Part shown: piece after piece, positions 10,710-31,100 of the stretch
How positions within the stretch are numbered: position 1 is the stretch's first letter
Layout of the letters: the number at the start of each line of letters is the position of its first letter
Source of the DNA: Streptomyces sulphureus DSM 40104
GTDB taxonomy: Bacteria; Actinomycetota; Actinomycetes; Streptomycetales; Streptomycetaceae
DNA length: 64,000 nucleotides
Direction of reading: 5' to 3'
Assembly (NCBI RefSeq): GCF_000381025.1
Contig: NZ_KB905823.1
Coordinates: 1-64,000, forward strand
The notes under the pieces: generated by a model
What the model was told of the DNA's origin: nothing
Seen by the model: the letters and a program-made list of their open reading frames with translations, nothing else
Databases searched by the model: none
Translations under genes and position numbers: made by a program

Positions 10710-10727
10710 CGGAAACGGCTGTCGACC

Positions 10728-10951
10728 CCGTGCGGGAGAGTCCTCCGGTGATGGTGCCGGGGGCGCCGAAGGAGCAAATCCTCCCCGGAATCTCTCAGGC
10801 ACACGTACCGTGCGGACGAGGTCACTCTGGAAAGCAGGGCGGGCCCGAGGACGAACGCCGAGAGTCCCCCTCACCGACGGTGTAAGCCGGGCCGGCCGAG
10901 AGAGGGCGGCGGCGCCGGTGAATCTCTCAGGTTGCGATGACAGAGGGGGAG
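10728..10951 (+). promoter_or_regulatory. Tandem glycine riboswitch
   Basis: Two consecutive glycine aptamers can be read. The first runs from TGCGGGAGAGTC through GCGCCGAAGGAGCAA and TCTCAGGCAC to ACTCTGGAAAG, near 10830. The second runs from GCCGAGAGTC through GGCGCCGGTGAATCTCTCAGG to GATGACAGAGGGG near 10948. These are the conserved family elements, and cooperative tandem aptamers are established for this class. The gene downstream is gcvP, matching the ligand. A GC hairpin (10956-10977) lies between the second aptamer and the SD site AGGAGG and may be the expression platform. There is no T-run, so translational control is more likely than termination; this last point is inference. Confidence 0.93.
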
Positions 10952-24520: not shown

Positions 24521-25836
24521 GGATAGCAGGCCGGGGCGGTGCGGAGATCGCCGCCAGCGTGGAACGGGGCATCGCGGAAGGCGCGTTGGCGCCCGGCCAA
24601 CACCTGCCGCCGCTGCGCGAGTTGGCGCGCGAACTCGGCGTCAACCCGAACACCGTCGCCGCCGCGTACCGCACCCTTCGGGAGCGCGGCGTCATCGAGA
24701 CCGCGGGCCGCCGCGGCAGCCGCGTCCGTGCGCGCCCCGCGAGCACACCGCGCGAGGAGCTCCGCCCCGACGTGCCCGAGGGCGCCGTCGACCTCTCCAC
24801 GGGCAACCCGGACCCCGCGCTGCTCCCTCCGCTCGACGAGGCGCTCGCCGCCGCCGCCCGCCGTGCGGCGGCCGAGCCGACGGTCTACGGCTCTCCGCCG
24901 CTCGTCCCCCGCTTCGCCCGACTCGCCCGCGCAGCACTGGCGTCGGACGGCGTCCCCGAGGCGCCGCTCGCAGCCGCCTCGGGGGCGCTCGACGCGATCG
25001 AGCGCGTCCTCTCGGCGCACCTGCGCCCCGGCGACCGCGTCGCCGTCGAGGACCCGGGCTGGGGCAGCCTCCTCGACCTCGTCCCCGCGCTCGGTCTCCG
25101 CCCCGTCCCGGTGGCTCTCGACGACGAGGGCCCCACCCTGCGCTCGGCCGAGCGCGCACTCGCCTCGGGCGCCCGCGCGCTCGTCGTCACGGCCCGCGCG
25201 CAGAACCCGACGGGCGCCGCGGTGAGCGAGGAACGCGCTGCCCGGCTACGGGAGTTGCTCGCCACCCGGCCGACGACCCTCCTCGTCGAGGACGACCACG
25301 GGCACGGCATCGCAGGACTCCCGCACCACCCGCTCGCCGGCGCCACGGCGCACTGGGCGCTGGTCCGCTCCACCTCCAAGGCGTACGGCCCCGACCTGCG
25401 CGTCGCGGTGCTCACCGGGGACGACACCACGCTCGCGCGGGTCGCAGGGCGGCAGCGCCTCGGCCCCGGCTGGGTCAGCCGGCTCCTCCAACACGCGGTC
25501 GTCCACCTGTGGGAGACGGACGCGGTCGACGGCCGTGCCGTCGCCCACTCCTACGACCGGCGCCGCGAGGAGCTGCGCGGCCTCCTCGCGGCCCGGGGGA
25601 TCGAGGCGCGCGGGCGCAGCGGGATGAACCTCTGGCTCCCCGTCCCCGACGAGACCGGTGCCGTCGCCCGGCTCCTCCACGCGGGCTGGGCCGTCGCCCC
25701 GGGCGCGAGGTTCCGCACCTCCTCGGCGCCCGGAGTCCGGCTCACCGTCTCGCCGCTGACGCAGGCGTCGTTGGAGCCGTTCGCCGACGCCGTCGCCGCT
25801 GCGCTGCGCCCCTCCTCCGGCGGTCGCTACGACTGA
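24505..25836 (+). CDS. MocR-type regulator (GntR HTH plus aminotransferase fold)
   Basis: 443 residues. The N-terminal 75 residues are a GntR winged helix (HLPPLRELARELGVNPNTVA, AYRTLRERGVIETAGRRGS). The rest is a fold-type I aminotransferase domain with the PLP lysine K292 in RSTSKAYGP and the motif ARAQNPTGAAVSEERA. MocR proteins sense PLP or amino-PLP adducts and control vitamin B6 or amine metabolism genes. The divergent PNPOx-like gene is the likely target. Its 3' end overlaps the convergent S9 peptidase gene by 10 bp. Confidence 0.9.
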   Translation: MLGEYRIAGRGGAEIAASVERGIAEGALAPGQHLPPLRELARELGVNPNTVAAAYRTLRERGVIETAGRRGSRVRARPASTPREELRPDVPEGAVDLSTGNPDPALLPPLDEALAAAARRAAAEPTVYGSPPLVPRFARLARAALASDGVPEAPLAAASGALDAIERVLSAHLRPGDRVAVEDPGWGSLLDLVPALGLRPVPVALDDEGPTLRSAERALASGARALVVTARAQNPTGAAVSEERAARLRELLATRPTTLLVEDDHGHGIAGLPHHPLAGATAHWALVRSTSKAYGPDLRVAVLTGDDTTLARVAGRQRLGPGWVSRLLQHAVVHLWETDAVDGRAVAHSYDRRREELRGLLAARGIEARGRSGMNLWLPVPDETGAVARLLHAGWAVAPGARFRTSSAPGVRLTVSPLTQASLEPFADAVAAALRPSSGGRYD

Positions 25837-27944
25837 GACCCAGTCGGACGCAGCGCGGAGAGCAGGAAGTTCCGCTCGTAGCGGAGGAGTTGGCGCTGTG
25901 TCACCGGATCGCGCACCAGGTGGGTCTCGCCCGGAAGCGGCAGGACGGTGTGCGGGCGTCCGGCGGCGAGGAGCGCGGCGGACAGCTTGAGGGTGTGGGT
26001 GAAGGCGACATTGTCGTCCGCGGTGCCGTGCACCAGCAGGAGCGGGCGGCGCAGGCCGGGAGCGTCGTCGAGGAGGGAGCTGCGCGCATAGTGGGCGGGG
26101 TGCTCGTCCGGATGGCCGAGGAAGCGCTCCTTCCAGTGGCTGTCGTAGTGGCGCTGATCGGAAGGGGCGGCACCGGCGACGGCTACGTGGAAGACGTCCG
26201 GGCGGCGCAGCACGGCGGCAGCCGCGAGCGTGCCGCCGAAAGACCAGCCGCGGATGCCGACCCGGGAGAGGTCGAGGTACGGCAGCTCGGCCGCCGCGGC
26301 GCGGACCGCGTCGACCTGGTCCTCCAGCGCCGGGCCCAACTGGTCGCCGCTGATGGCCTTCTCCCACGCGAGTCCGCGTCCCGGAGTGCCGCGGCCGTCG
26401 ACGACGAGCACCGCGAAACCCTGTTCGGCGAACCACTGCGCGACGGCGTCCTGCCAGCCCGAACCCTTCCGCACGAGCTGCATCCCCGGCCCCCCGTACG
26501 GCGAGAGGAGCACCGGGAGCCGCGTGCCCGCGCGCGGCTCCCTGCCGCCCGGAAGGAAGAGAGCGCACCGCAGGCGCCGCTCCCCGAGTACCAGCAGCCG
26601 GGGCCTCGGCTGCGGGACGGGCTCCTCGGTGAGCGTCGCGAGCTCGCCGAGGAGCCCGTCACCGCGGTGGAGCGTGACGCAACTCCCGTGCGTGCCCGCG
26701 GAGTCGAGGACGAAGGTGTCGCCGCCGACGGCCGCCGTGTGCACCCCCGGCTCCTCGCTGAGCCGTTCGCATCCCCGCTCGGGCGTGTAGCGGTACACGT
26801 GCTCCTCGGTGGGCTCCTCGGCGCCGCCGAAGAGCACCGCGTCGCCCTGCGTCCCGTGTACGGCGATGAGTTGGAGCCCCGGAGGCGTCACGGCCCGGCC
26901 GTCCACGGCGAGCCGCCGCGTGTCGCAGCCCTCGTCGTCGTACGGCTCGACGAGCGCGCCGGACGCGGTGCGGCAGGGTGTTCCGCTGATCAGCTCCACC
27001 CAGTGCGCGTCGGTGCGCTCGGAGACCGTTCTGACGTGCCCCGTCGTCGGATCGACGGCGAGGGTGCGCAGCGTGCGCTGATCGCGGGTCTGTGCGGCGG
27101 CGAACGGGCCGTGCGCGTCCCAGCCGGCCGCCGGGAGGTACTCGAAGTCACCGCCCGGCAGGTCGATTCGGACCCGCTCGCCGTCGAGCCCCAGCACATG
27201 GAGCGTGACGCGCGGATTGGCCGTTCCGGCGGCCGGGTACGGCGCCGACCGCGGGGCGCGCTCGGGGCGGAACGGGTCGGCGTACCACCGCAGTTGGACG
27301 TCGGACTCGTCGACGCGCACCGCGAGGACGGCGTCTCCCCCGTGCGCCCACCAGTGGCCGCGCAGCCTGCCCATCGACTCGGCCGAGATGTGGTCGCTCG
27401 ACCCGTAGCCGACGCAGGGGCCTTCGGGCGCTGCGAGAGTGCGCGCACCGGTGCCGTCGACGCCGACGACGTGCAGGGCGCCCTCGCTGACGTAGGCGAT
27501 GCGGGAGCCGTCGGGGGAGGGCCGCGGATCGAAGACGGGTCCTGGTACGGGGACGCGGAAGGGGACGGCGTCCTCGGTGCGGACCGCCCAGAGTGCGCCG
27601 CCGAGCGTGAAGGCGGCGATGGTGCAGTCGGCGTCGGCCGCGAACGCCGTGATGCCCAGGGCGAGTTCGCGAGTGCGTTCGCGGAGCGGGTCCGCCGGCT
27701 CGGGGGCGGCGGGCAGCTCGCCCGGGTCGGCTAGGGTGCGCTCGGTGCCGTCCTGCCAGAGCCGGAGGAGGCTCACCGGATCGCTGCCTGTACGGGTGCG
27801 CAGGAACACGACGCGCCGACCGTCGGCCGAGACCGACGGTGCGCGTACGGCGCCGAGCGAGAAGCGCCGGGTGCGCGCGAACTGCTCGGGGAAGTCGGGG
27901 CACGGGTCGACGGGGCCGTCGTCCCGCGGGTCGGGAAGGTGCAT
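25827..27944 (-). CDS. S9-family prolyl oligopeptidase (dipeptidyl-peptidase IV type)
   Basis: 705 residues. An N-terminal beta-propeller domain (about 20-430; FSLGAVRAPSVSADGRRVVF, VFDPRPSPDGSRIAYVSEG) covers an alpha/beta-hydrolase domain. The catalytic serine is S568 in GIRGWSFGG, the aspartate is in HGTADDN (643-644), and the histidine is H675 in PGETHLV. No signal peptide is seen, so it is probably cytoplasmic and degrades proline-containing peptides. ATG 27944 has GAGGAG upstream. A strong intrinsic terminator lies in its leader, 55 bp before the start, suggesting attenuation. Confidence 0.92.
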   Translation of the reverse strand: MHLPDPRDDGPVDPCPDFPEQFARTRRFSLGAVRAPSVSADGRRVVFLRTRTGSDPVSLLRLWQDGTERTLADPGELPAAPEPADPLRERTRELALGITAFAADADCTIAAFTLGGALWAVRTEDAVPFRVPVPGPVFDPRPSPDGSRIAYVSEGALHVVGVDGTGARTLAAPEGPCVGYGSSDHISAESMGRLRGHWWAHGGDAVLAVRVDESDVQLRWYADPFRPERAPRSAPYPAAGTANPRVTLHVLGLDGERVRIDLPGGDFEYLPAAGWDAHGPFAAAQTRDQRTLRTLAVDPTTGHVRTVSERTDAHWVELISGTPCRTASGALVEPYDDEGCDTRRLAVDGRAVTPPGLQLIAVHGTQGDAVLFGGAEEPTEEHVYRYTPERGCERLSEEPGVHTAAVGGDTFVLDSAGTHGSCVTLHRGDGLLGELATLTEEPVPQPRPRLLVLGERRLRCALFLPGGREPRAGTRLPVLLSPYGGPGMQLVRKGSGWQDAVAQWFAEQGFAVLVVDGRGTPGRGLAWEKAISGDQLGPALEDQVDAVRAAAAELPYLDLSRVGIRGWSFGGTLAAAAVLRRPDVFHVAVAGAAPSDQRHYDSHWKERFLGHPDEHPAHYARSSLLDDAPGLRRPLLLVHGTADDNVAFTHTLKLSAALLAAGRPHTVLPLPGETHLVRDPVTQRQLLRYERNFLLSALRPTGSQS

Positions 27945-27998
27945 CGGTTGCTCCTCGTCCTGGAGGGTCGGTATGTGCGCCGGGCCGTGCGCGCACAC

Positions 27999-28032
27999 GA
28001 AAAAGCCTCCAGGCGGTGAACACCGGGAGGCT
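27999..28032 (-). terminator. Intrinsic terminator in the 5' leader of the S9 peptidase gene
   Basis: Read on the minus strand: AGCCTCC, then CGGTG-TT-CACCG, then CCT, then GGAGGCT followed by TTTTC. Stem and T-run are oriented with the downstream peptidase gene, and there is no other minus-strand gene between it and the divergent hipA-like gene. A partly overlapping alternative pairing (CCTCCAG with CTGGAGG) is possible. Candidate attenuator; no leader peptide was recognised. Confidence 0.7.
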
Positions 28033-28182
28033 GGAGGAACGGGGCGGCTGCACGGGCAACTCGCGTACTGCGCAAAGTCGTTGGAAGAGTACACCCTGAC
28101 ACCGCGCCCGGTCCCGCTCTTCGCGGGCCACGCGGCACCCACCGGGCACACGGCGGCGGTGCACTCGGCATAACCTGGGCGG

Positions 28183-29013
28183 ATGCTTCCAGAGACCACC
28201 GCCACGCGCTATGTGACGCCGCTCCGCGAGGGCGGCTCGCTCCCCGGCCTCGTCGAGGCCGGAGATCTGGGCACCTACGTGGCGAAGTTCACCGGCGCCG
28301 GGCAGGGGCGTAAGGCGCTCGTCGCCGAGGTCGTCGCCGGGCAGCTCGCCCGCAGGCTCGGGCTGCGCGTCCCCGAGCTGGTGTCCCTGGAGGTCGACCC
28401 GGTGATCGGGCTCGCCGAGCCGGACGAGGAGGTGCAGGAGCTCCTCAAGGAGAGCGGCGGTCGCAACCTCGGCATGGACTACCTGCCGGGCTCGCTCGGC
28501 TTCGACCCGCTCGCGTACACGGTCGGCCCCGAGGAGGCGGGCCGGATCGTGTGGTTCGACGCGCTCGTCGACAACGTCGACCGCTCGTGGCGCAACCCCA
28601 ACATGCTGGTCTGGCACGGCGACCTGTGGCTCATCGACCACGGGGCCACGTTGGTCTGGCACCACAGCTTCGGCTCCGCGGGCCGCGCCGTCGCGAAGCC
28701 GTACGACGCCTCCGACCACGCGCTCGCGCCCTTCGGTCCCGACATCGCGGCGGCTGCCGGGGCGCTGGCGCCCCGCGTCACCGAGGAGCTGGTCGCCGCG
28801 TGCGCCGCGGACGTCCCGGACGAGTGGCTCGCACCCGAGCAGGGCGCTCCGGACGCGGACGCCGTGCGCGCCGTCTACGCGCAGGTCCTCTCGGAGCGGG
28901 CGCGCACGGTCCACGAGCACGTCACCGTCGGCGAACCGACGCGGGACCGCCCTTCGCAGGCGCCGGGCTGGCTCACGGGCCGCGACGAGCCGAGCGGGTG
29001 CGGTGCGAGATGA
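28183..29013 (+). CDS. HipA-like kinase family protein
   Basis: 276 residues resembling the HipA-related kinase group: GDLGTYVAKFTGAGQGRKAL as nucleotide-binding strand and lysine, LVAEVVAGQLARRLGLRVPE as the following helix, and the catalytic/metal region WFDALVDNVDRSWRNPN then GDLWLIDHGATL. It lacks the HipA N-terminal domain and has no HipB-like repressor next to it, so it should not be called a toxin. ATG 28183 follows TAACCT (28171-28176) by 6 bases, indicating a leaderless mRNA. Its stop overlaps the ATG of the DUF3037 gene (ATGA), so the pair is coupled. Confidence 0.82.
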   Translation: MLPETTATRYVTPLREGGSLPGLVEAGDLGTYVAKFTGAGQGRKALVAEVVAGQLARRLGLRVPELVSLEVDPVIGLAEPDEEVQELLKESGGRNLGMDYLPGSLGFDPLAYTVGPEEAGRIVWFDALVDNVDRSWRNPNMLVWHGDLWLIDHGATLVWHHSFGSAGRAVAKPYDASDHALAPFGPDIAAAAGALAPRVTEELVAACAADVPDEWLAPEQGAPDADAVRAVYAQVLSERARTVHEHVTVGEPTRDRPSQAPGWLTGRDEPSGCGAR

Positions 29014-29441
29014 GCGGAAACGTACGGGCGAGCGGCAACCACCGAGTGAGCGGGGAGCGCAGGGAGTTGGACGTCTTCGAGTACGCGGTGCTGCGCGTGG
29101 TGCCGCGGGTGGAGCGGGGCGAGTCGATCAACGCAGGCGTGGTGGTGTACTGCCGTGCCCGTTCCTACGTCGGCGCCTGCGTCCACCTCGACGAGGCGCG
29201 GCTGCGGGCGCTCGACGCCGGTGCCGACGTGGTCGGTGTCCGCGCGGCGCTGCGTGCCGTCGAGGGGGTGTGCGCCGGCGGGCGGGCCGCGGGTCAGGCC
29301 GCCGACGAGGACCCGGGACGCAGGTTCAGGTGGCTGGTGGCGCCGAAGAGCACCGTGGTGCAGCCCGGTCCGGTGCACACGGGGCTCACGGCCGACCCGG
29401 AGGCGGAGACGGAGCGCCTGCTGGAGGAGCTCGTCCGCTGA
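29010..29441 (+). CDS. DUF3037 protein
   Basis: 143 residues of DUF3037: FEYAVLRVVPRVERGESINA, GVVVYCRARSYVGACVHLDE and FRWLVAPKSTVVQPGPVHTG. It is a soluble protein without known activity. The ATG overlaps the stop of the HipA-like kinase gene, and this pairing recurs in bacteria, so the two products probably act on the same process. What the kinase modifies and whether DUF3037 is its partner or substrate are unknown. Confidence 0.85.
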   Translation: MSGNVRASGNHRVSGERRELDVFEYAVLRVVPRVERGESINAGVVVYCRARSYVGACVHLDEARLRALDAGADVVGVRAALRAVEGVCAGGRAAGQAADEDPGRRFRWLVAPKSTVVQPGPVHTGLTADPEAETERLLEELVR

Positions 29442-29475
29442 CGACCGCGGCCGACGACCGGTGCGCAGGCGGCCG

Positions 29476-29504
29476 TTGACAGCGGGTGCCGGGGCTCATA
29501 GCGT
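29476..29504 (+). promoter_or_regulatory. Strong vegetative-type promoter of the fabG-like gene
   Basis: TTGACA (29476-29481), a consensus -35, is followed after 17 bases by TAGCGT (29499-29504). Transcription should start near 29511. Confidence 0.75.
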
Positions 29505-29516
29505 CACGACTGCCGT

Positions 29517-29534
29517 AGCAACTAAGCGTTTGCT
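29517..29534 (+). promoter_or_regulatory. Operator-like inverted repeat just after the transcription start
   Basis: AGCAA (29517-29521) and TTGCT (29530-29534) form an inverted repeat around CTAAGCGT, directly downstream of the predicted start point of the fabG-like transcript. The position would suit a TetR-type repressor; the regulator is unknown. Confidence 0.5.
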
Positions 29535-29562
29535 CACCATCCAGGACGAGGAGATACCCAGC

Positions 29563-30324
29563 ATGTCCACCACCGAGCAGCGTGTCGCGATCGTGACGGG
29601 TTCGGCCCGGGGCATCGGCGCGGCCACGGCCGTACGCCTCGCCGCCGAGGGCCGCGCGGTCGCCGTCGTCGACCTCGACGAGGCGGCCTGCCAGGAGACC
29701 GTCGACAAGATCACCTCCGCCGGCGGCACCGCGCGCGCCTTCGGCTGCGACGTCTCCGACTCGGCGCAGGTGGAGGCGGCCGTCGCCCGCGTCGCCGAGG
29801 AGCTCGGCGCGCCCACCGTGCTCGTCAACAACGCCGGCGTCCTCCGCGACAACCTGCTCTTCAAGATGAGCGACGCCGACTGGGACACCGTCCTCGGCGT
29901 CCACCTGCGCGGCGCCTTCCTGATGTCGCGGGCCTGCCAGAGCCACATGGTCGACGCCGGCTTCGGCCGCATCGTCAACCTCTCCTCGTCCTCGGCGCTC
30001 GGCAACCGCGGGCAGGTCAACTACGCCGCGGCCAAGGCCGGGATGCAGGGCTTCACCAAGACCCTCGCCAAGGAGCTGGGCAAGTTCGGCATCACCGCCA
30101 ACTCCGTGGCGCCCGGCTTCATCGCCACCGACATGACCGCCGCCACCGCCGAGCGTGTCGGCATGGGCTTCGACGACTTCAAGGCAGCGGCGGCGACGCA
30201 GATCCCGGTGCAGCGCGTCGGCGCCCCGGAGGACGTGGCCCACGCGATCGCCTTCTTCACCGGCGAGCAGGCCGGCTTCGTCTCCGGCCAGGTCATGTAC
30301 GTGGCCGGCGGCCCCCTCAACTGA
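29563..30324 (+). CDS. 3-oxoacyl-ACP reductase-like SDR
   Basis: 253 residues, classical short-chain dehydrogenase/reductase. The NAD(P) motif is TGSARGIGAATAV, followed by NNAGVLRDNLLFKM. The catalytic serine and Y-x-x-x-K are in NLSSSSALGNRGQVNYAAAKAG. GFIATDMT and the C-terminal VSGQVMYVAGGP are typical of FabG-type reductases. It likely reduces a beta-ketoacyl thioester in fatty acid or related metabolism; being away from fab genes, it may not be the housekeeping FabG. It is followed 17 bp later by another SDR, probably in one transcript. Confidence 0.9.
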   Translation: MSTTEQRVAIVTGSARGIGAATAVRLAAEGRAVAVVDLDEAACQETVDKITSAGGTARAFGCDVSDSAQVEAAVARVAEELGAPTVLVNNAGVLRDNLLFKMSDADWDTVLGVHLRGAFLMSRACQSHMVDAGFGRIVNLSSSSALGNRGQVNYAAAKAGMQGFTKTLAKELGKFGITANSVAPGFIATDMTAATAERVGMGFDDFKAAAATQIPVQRVGAPEDVAHAIAFFTGEQAGFVSGQVMYVAGGPLN

Positions 30325-30341
30325 ACCCGGAGGCAGGCAGG

Positions 30342-31100
30342 ATGGCAGAGCAGCAGGACACCGGGCGCGTCGCGCTCGTCACCGGCGCGAGCCGCGGGAT
30401 CGGCTACGGCGTCGCGGAGGCGCTCGCCGCACGGGGCGACCGCGTCTGCGTCACCGGGCGCAACGAGGACGCGCTCAAGGAGGCCGTGCAGTCGCTCGGC
30501 ACCGACCGTGCGATGTACGTCGCGGGCAAGGCGCACGACCCGGGGCACCAGGAGGAGGCCGTCGGCCGGGTGATGGAGGCGTACGGCCGCCTCGACCACC
30601 TCGTCAACAACGCGGGCACCAACCCGGTCTTCGGCCCGATAGCCGACGCCGACCCCGGCGTGGTGCGCAAGGTCTTCGAGACCAACGTCCTCTCCGCGCT
30701 CGGCTTCGCGCAGCAGACGTGGGCGGCGTGGCAGCAGGAGCACGGCGGCACCATCGTCAACGTCGCCTCGATCGCGGGGGTTTCGGCCTCGCCGTTCATC
30801 GGCCCCTACGGCATGAGCAAGGCGGCGATGATCAACCTCACGCTCCAATTGGCGCACGAGTTCGCGCCCGCGGTCCGGGTCAACGCGCTCGCGCCCGCGG
30901 TCGTCAAGACCAAGTTCGCGGTGGCGCTCTACGAGGGCCGCGAGGACGAGGCCGCCGCCCGCTACCCGATGGGCCGGCTCGGCGCCCCGGAGGACGTCGC
31001 AGGCGCCGCCGCCTTCCTCACCTCGGACGAGGCGGCCTGGATCACCGGGCAGACCCTCGTCCTCGACGGCGGTCTCTTCCTCAACGCCGGCGTGGAGTAG
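30342..31100 (+). CDS. SDR-family oxidoreductase
   Basis: 252 residues. The cofactor loop is TGASRGIGYGVAEALAARGD, the NNAG motif is HLVNNAGTNPVFGP, and the active site is VNVASIAGVSASPFIGPYGM with the lysine in SKAAM. Note that the catalytic pair reads Y-G-M-S-K, a normal YxxxK. GGAGG lies before the ATG, which follows the fabG-like stop by 17 bp. Substrate unknown; it presumably works together with its neighbour. Confidence 0.9.
   Translation: MAEQQDTGRVALVTGASRGIGYGVAEALAARGDRVCVTGRNEDALKEAVQSLGTDRAMYVAGKAHDPGHQEEAVGRVMEAYGRLDHLVNNAGTNPVFGPIADADPGVVRKVFETNVLSALGFAQQTWAAWQQEHGGTIVNVASIAGVSASPFIGPYGMSKAAMINLTLQLAHEFAPAVRVNALAPAVVKTKFAVALYEGREDEAAARYPMGRLGAPEDVAGAAAFLTSDEAAWITGQTLVLDGGLFLNAGVE

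Follow-up and report, generated by a model that had tools for sequence, protein, structure and literature searches.

Antibiotic-responsive leaders of the ABC-F and HflX type resemble the leader described here in terminating transcription prematurely, as predicted for ours. They differ from ours, which has no upstream frame with a stop codon and whose target is not a ribosome-protection factor. For Streptomyces, a Term-seq study of S. clavuligerus reports 150 premature units, made up of 17 riboswitches recognized by Rfam, 37 previously identified units, and 96 novel ones (PMC8269248). These units are the same kind of thing as ours, transcripts ending in a leader ahead of a coding gene; their 3′ ends come from Term-seq, whereas the peptidase leader is predicted from sequence alone. 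Leader-peptide attenuators of amino acid and tRNA-ligase genes are described for S. lividans (PMC8079986). The shared element is a leader, upstream of the gene, in which transcription is presumed to stop; here, in contrast, the target is a peptidase, and no stop-bearing leader peptide is present. Transcriptional riboswitches likewise place hairpins ahead of a terminator, but the peptidase leader has no Rfam match, no antiterminator fold, and no wide conservation. Premature termination in leaders is a frequent and known kind of event in Streptomyces. Among the literature titles listed by a search whose reach excluded most subscription papers, none deals with this S9 peptidase leader.

Layout of the locus and the promoter-like boxes

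The window is a stretch of 64,000 nucleotides of Streptomyces sulphureus DSM 40104 DNA, and the gene under study encodes a peptidase of the S9 family (Table 1). Read 5′ to 3′ on the minus strand, the locus runs from the start of a HipA-like gene through about 85 nt of intergenic DNA to the boxes CAGGGT and TACTCT, then about 50 nt further to the hairpin, and on to the ATG of the peptidase. As the initial annotation had stated, no minus-strand gene lies between the promoter-like boxes and the terminator; the upstream neighbour is the divergent HipA-like kinase gene, which starts at 28183.

Table 1. Features of the peptidase leader and its neighbours, in window coordinates
Feature	Position	Strand	Evidence or remark
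S9 family peptidase gene	25830..27944	-	PF00326, E 1.3e-45; PF00930, E 1.7e-25
Ribosome binding site GAGGAG	27951..27956	-	sequence; invariant in S. xiaopingdaonensis
Putative 5′ leader preceding the S9 coding region, about 137 nt	27945..28081	-	from the putative start site to the ATG
U-run TTTTT of the terminator	28000..28004	-	sequence; invariant in S. xiaopingdaonensis
Intrinsic terminator hairpin	28004..28032	-	-18.1 kcal/mol; pairing probability in the outer stem 0.87-1.0; kept in S. xiaopingdaonensis
Hairpin P1	28044..28064	-	alone -9.1 (window) and -10.4 (S. xiaopingdaonensis) kcal/mol
Hairpin P0, at the putative RNA 5′ end	28057..28080	-	alone -7.1 (window) and -10.5 (S. xiaopingdaonensis) kcal/mol
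Likely -10 box TACTCT	28086..28091	-	fits TAnnnT; TATCCT in S. xiaopingdaonensis
Alternative, perhaps older -10 box CAGGGT	28093..28098	-	CAGGAT in S. xiaopingdaonensis
Possible -35 box GGGACC, 18 nt from TACTCT	28110..28115	-	putative; weak fit to nTGACn; CGGACC in S. xiaopingdaonensis
Divergent neighbour, HipA-like kinase gene (HipA_2)	28183..29013	+	PF20613, E 3.3e-12

The surroundings offered several observations of their own. The gene for the HipA-like kinase has a leaderless appearance as well, with TAACCT 6 nt before its ATG (28171-28185, by eye), and sequence resembling its upstream box (CATTTCCCCAGGCTA read backwards) recurs, again by eye, in many relatives. Behind it lies a DUF3037 gene (PF11236, E 3.7e-43), and the two together span 28183-29438. 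The kinase finds a match in 198 of 199 genus genomes, and the divergent arrangement with an S9 gene was seen in some genomes only (G006, G152, G093, and G192, for example). At the other end of the S9 gene, a GntR/aminotransferase fusion gene (PF00392, PF00155; 24505-25836), whose product we take to be of the MocR type, converges on it so that the ends overlap by about 10 bases. Elsewhere in the window, a glycine riboswitch aptamer (RF00504) lies at 10723-10820 and a 5S rRNA (RF00001), cut by the window start, at 1-98.

For S. lividans, published work gives TAnnnT as the -10 element, with a weak -35 element nTGACn (PMC8079986). TACTCT, which the initial annotation had named as the likely promoter, is indeed present at 28091-28086, and both changes in the near relative Streptomyces xiaopingdaonensis fall on n positions of TAnnnT. 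CAGGGT is a candidate alternative because some S9 relatives of the leaderless type carry TGTCAnnnT upstream of the ATG, at a distance of 6-7 nt. These boxes, which we take as the putative promoter, stand about 50 nt upstream of the terminator. If the true transcription start lay downstream of the terminator instead, the hairpin would be a relic or an insulator that does not touch the peptidase mRNA. A fixed-rule scan of 25500-30500 found no sigma-70 promoter consensus, which would be compatible with such a start. However, no TAnnnT-type box between terminator and ATG is, by eye, kept in S. xiaopingdaonensis, where CACATACC of the window reads CACGTGCC, while both upstream boxes retain A2 and T6. 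We consider a downstream start unlikely.

The terminator hairpin

The hairpin and U-run upstream of the S9 peptidase are a well-formed stop signal: a GC-rich hairpin (-18.1 kcal/mol) followed directly by TTTTT. The arms AGCCTCC (28032-28026) and GGAGGCT (28010-28004) form seven outer pairs, inside which a C.U mismatch is followed by four inner pairs. The 12-bp GC stem described earlier is thus a real hairpin whose length was off by one, with 11 pairs and one mismatch, and its placement 55 nt before the peptidase start is accurate (T-run at 28004-28000, ATG at 27944). When folding of a growing transcript was simulated, the hairpin formed once its 3′ arm had been made. A 97-nt stretch that includes the terminator has a better fold than its own shuffles do (z -2.91), and for the 146-nt leader the advantage is weak (z -1.68).

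Among the hairpins scanned in the 64-kb window, this one alone is followed by five uninterrupted T. Under a strict rule (hairpin of at most -12 kcal/mol, then TTTTT), seven sites were found on both strands of 464 kb of the same genome, made up of the window and 400 kb taken from contig 2. None of the seven lies inside a called gene, and three are in a leader-only position, as judged by a crude gene caller that scored about 70% of the DNA as coding and placed the S9 start too far upstream. Of 2,000 dinucleotide shuffles of the 238-nt intergenic region 27945-28182, 30 contained a strict-rule site, with both strands counted. The leader terminator is absent from the list of the fixed-rule scan of 25500-30500, probably because of the stem mismatch; that scan reported one other terminator-like site, with 1.0 expected from shuffles. 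Another hairpin, on contig 2 of the same genome (L120:4437-4468), is followed by seven T, and the same gene caller gives it a leader-only position. The sequence GAGGCTTTTTCG is present twice in the genome, the second copy lying, by eye, in coding-like DNA without a 5′ arm nearby. Since the genome has one copy of the leader, a repeated leader was rejected.

Distribution and possible origin of the leader

A protein scan of genome contigs revealed one near relative, S. xiaopingdaonensis (L069), whose best S9 segment is 93% identical over residues 20-705. Its leader can be aligned with that of the window throughout, and the boxes, the hairpin, and the U-run are kept. AGCCT and GGAGGCTTTTTCG do not differ between the two, nor do the outer arms of the stem or TTTTTCG. 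The inner stem of the relative carries an inserted C and several substitutions, yet it forms ten continuous pairs (-21.1 kcal/mol). Strict covariation is not seen, since the outer stem is identical in both; the hairpin was retained through change. Twelve nt after the U-run are deleted in S. xiaopingdaonensis, and in this comparison of two sequences the leader is, by eye, no better conserved than its flanks.

Conservation of the stem in related genomes, which the initial annotation had brought up, extends to S. xiaopingdaonensis; in the other streptomycetes searched, the stem was not found. We built a covariance model, R1, from the two leaders and ran it with the stricter filters of Infernal on 392 genomes of the genus. 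Matches at E <= 1 appeared in 57 of the 392, and only the window's own leader is convincing (2.3e-24, the next best being 0.0027 per genome); an aptamer conserved across species, as in a riboswitch, did not emerge. Thirteen other matches inspected by eye have no run of four T after the hairpin, and most resemble coding DNA; the match in L131 is an intergenic-looking hairpin without a U-run. A DNA search with 27230-28180 at 1e-30 matched 29 other genomes of 383, a sample that overlaps heavily with the 392, and each match is confined to the S9 coding part (query position at least 255, the ATG being at 237). When 61 genomes were searched with DNA, seven besides the own genome matched 27-58 nt of the query, which we judged by eye to be chance, and the match over the terminator in L006 lacks a U-run. 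Plasmid records gave no leader match. These searches also bear on whether the product is the short RNA itself, a small RNA running from about 28080 to 28000, with the peptidase expressed by read-through or from separate transcription. The promoter-like boxes, the 5′ hairpin, and the terminator would suffice for that, but the single copy in the genome, the lack of an Rfam family, and the lack of a convincing model match elsewhere argue against it, and we find it very unlikely.

We then compared the regions upstream of S9 genes. From 61 S9 loci, seven without an anchor (L017, L023, L027, L033, L079, L081, and L096) and four repeats were removed, leaving 50 that include the window and S. xiaopingdaonensis. 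A leaderless layout, with [TC]AnnnT 6-7 nt before the ATG and no Shine-Dalgarno-like motif, is present in 25 of these 50, compared with 11.3% of random positions; the 50 include some that are close to one another and do not count as independent. The remaining 25, which include the window and S. xiaopingdaonensis, lack this layout, and several of these (L014, L016, and L019) have, by eye, GGAGG-like sites. L031 carries the window stretch TGTCAGGGTGT immediately before its ATG. The second S9 gene of the own genome (51% identical) has TACCGT 6 nt before the ATG, and no leader terminator was seen there by eye. Leaderless transcripts make up 17% in S. lividans (PMC8079986).

Under a looser rule, terminator-like sites precede 4 of the 50 S9 genes: those of the window, S. 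xiaopingdaonensis, L013, and L099. The site in L099 lies inside a predicted coding part. In L013 (G215) a strong terminator stands about 45 nt before the S9 start; it may serve the upstream gene, presumably reductase-like, since that gene is on the same strand and ends about 175 nt upstream. Because half of the S9 upstreams (25 of 50) look leaderless, the leader may have been gained in one lineage. The window's lineage may have acquired its leader between the old -10 box and the start codon, if the change ran in that direction.

Probable read-through and its possible control

The initial annotation described the leader as attenuation of the peptidase, possibly through an RNA sensor or a ribosome-dependent switch. 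The attenuation part is supported to the extent that a terminator lies in the gene's own leader, past promoter-like boxes, and is kept in the relative; the switch is unsupported. A competing pairing of CCTCCAG (28037-28031) with CTGGAGG (28012-28006) had been pointed out. It exists in the sequence, but we rejected it as a switch, since it folds to -8.9 compared with -18.1 kcal/mol for the terminator and S. xiaopingdaonensis has lost the partner of CCTCCAG. Because the pairing stops one base short of the same U-run, it would act as a second terminator register rather than as an antiterminator. That no known riboswitch class is present agrees with our Rfam search, in which the leader matched no family at the gathering threshold; at E up to 10, there was one match, on the opposite strand, with 15.8 bits vs the 45 needed (E 1.9).

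If the attenuator were regulated, a protein, a ligand, or a physical state would act on P0 and P1 or on the terminator and decide read-through. Such a regulating signal, or an RNA sensor, is possible, and what speaks for it in the folding models is the small overlapping hairpins alone. P0 and P1 overlap and are therefore mutually exclusive, each folds by itself in both species, and two differences in the P0 stem, in our own reading, keep pairing. However, neither hairpin involves the terminator arms. The best fold of this region in S. xiaopingdaonensis is a third, longer hairpin, neither P0 nor P1, which makes the switch reading less likely. No mutually exclusive antiterminator was found: blocking the 3′ arm of the terminator carries a penalty of 14.1 kcal/mol for the window and 17.9 kcal/mol for the relative, with no strong alternative fold. 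The leader also turned up in a single lineage and matches no Rfam family. We regard a regulated attenuator as quite unlikely. A further step would be that the peptidase gene, formerly leaderless in this lineage, acquired about 137 nt of leader that includes overlapping small hairpins and a strong terminator. The result would be a young, unclassified attenuator under protein or ligand control beside a HipA-like kinase gene; this we think highly improbable.

Control by a ribosome translating a leader reading frame was weighed separately. One frame of the leader differs between the two species by 7 synonymous and 9 nonsynonymous codons, as opposed to 4:14 and 2:14 in the others, a mildly coding-like pattern that is closer to that of the S9 coding frame (27:22) than to those of the off frames of that gene (7:44 and 10:40). 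With three frames tried, the sign is a weak one, and the counts start at 28090, so that they include a few promoter bases. In the alignment of the two leaders, a TTG and a GTG also stand at matching positions. However, the frames that these shared codons open run into the peptidase gene, in frame in the relative and out of frame in the window, and the coding-like frame has no common start, since its first codon differs between the species (TTG or CTG). Neither leader has an ATG or a stop codon in any frame; hence there is no self-contained leader peptide. The leader peptide was rejected, and ribosome-dependent control by this route appears extremely unlikely. We also rejected the idea that the peptidase extends N-terminally through the leader, since in our reading of the alignment the differences right before the ATG alter the amino acids encoded in the S9 frame.

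We think it fairly probable, from the sequence features described, that a premature intrinsic terminator in the peptidase leader sets expression by read-through, either fixed or modulated by a factor. The S9 gene would be transcribed from a promoter near 28086-28115, and its leader would measure about 137 nt. On reaching the terminator some 50-80 nt into this leader, RNA polymerase would release a fraction of the transcripts, each about 80 nt long. Read-through would give the peptidase mRNA, and the terminator would lower or set peptidase expression.

Taken alone, the terminator of the peptidase leader raises no large question. If termination is confirmed, Streptomyces would have one more leader with premature termination, for which no signal is known. 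If our reading is true, the leader was perhaps added to a formerly leaderless gene, so that its origin could be traced.
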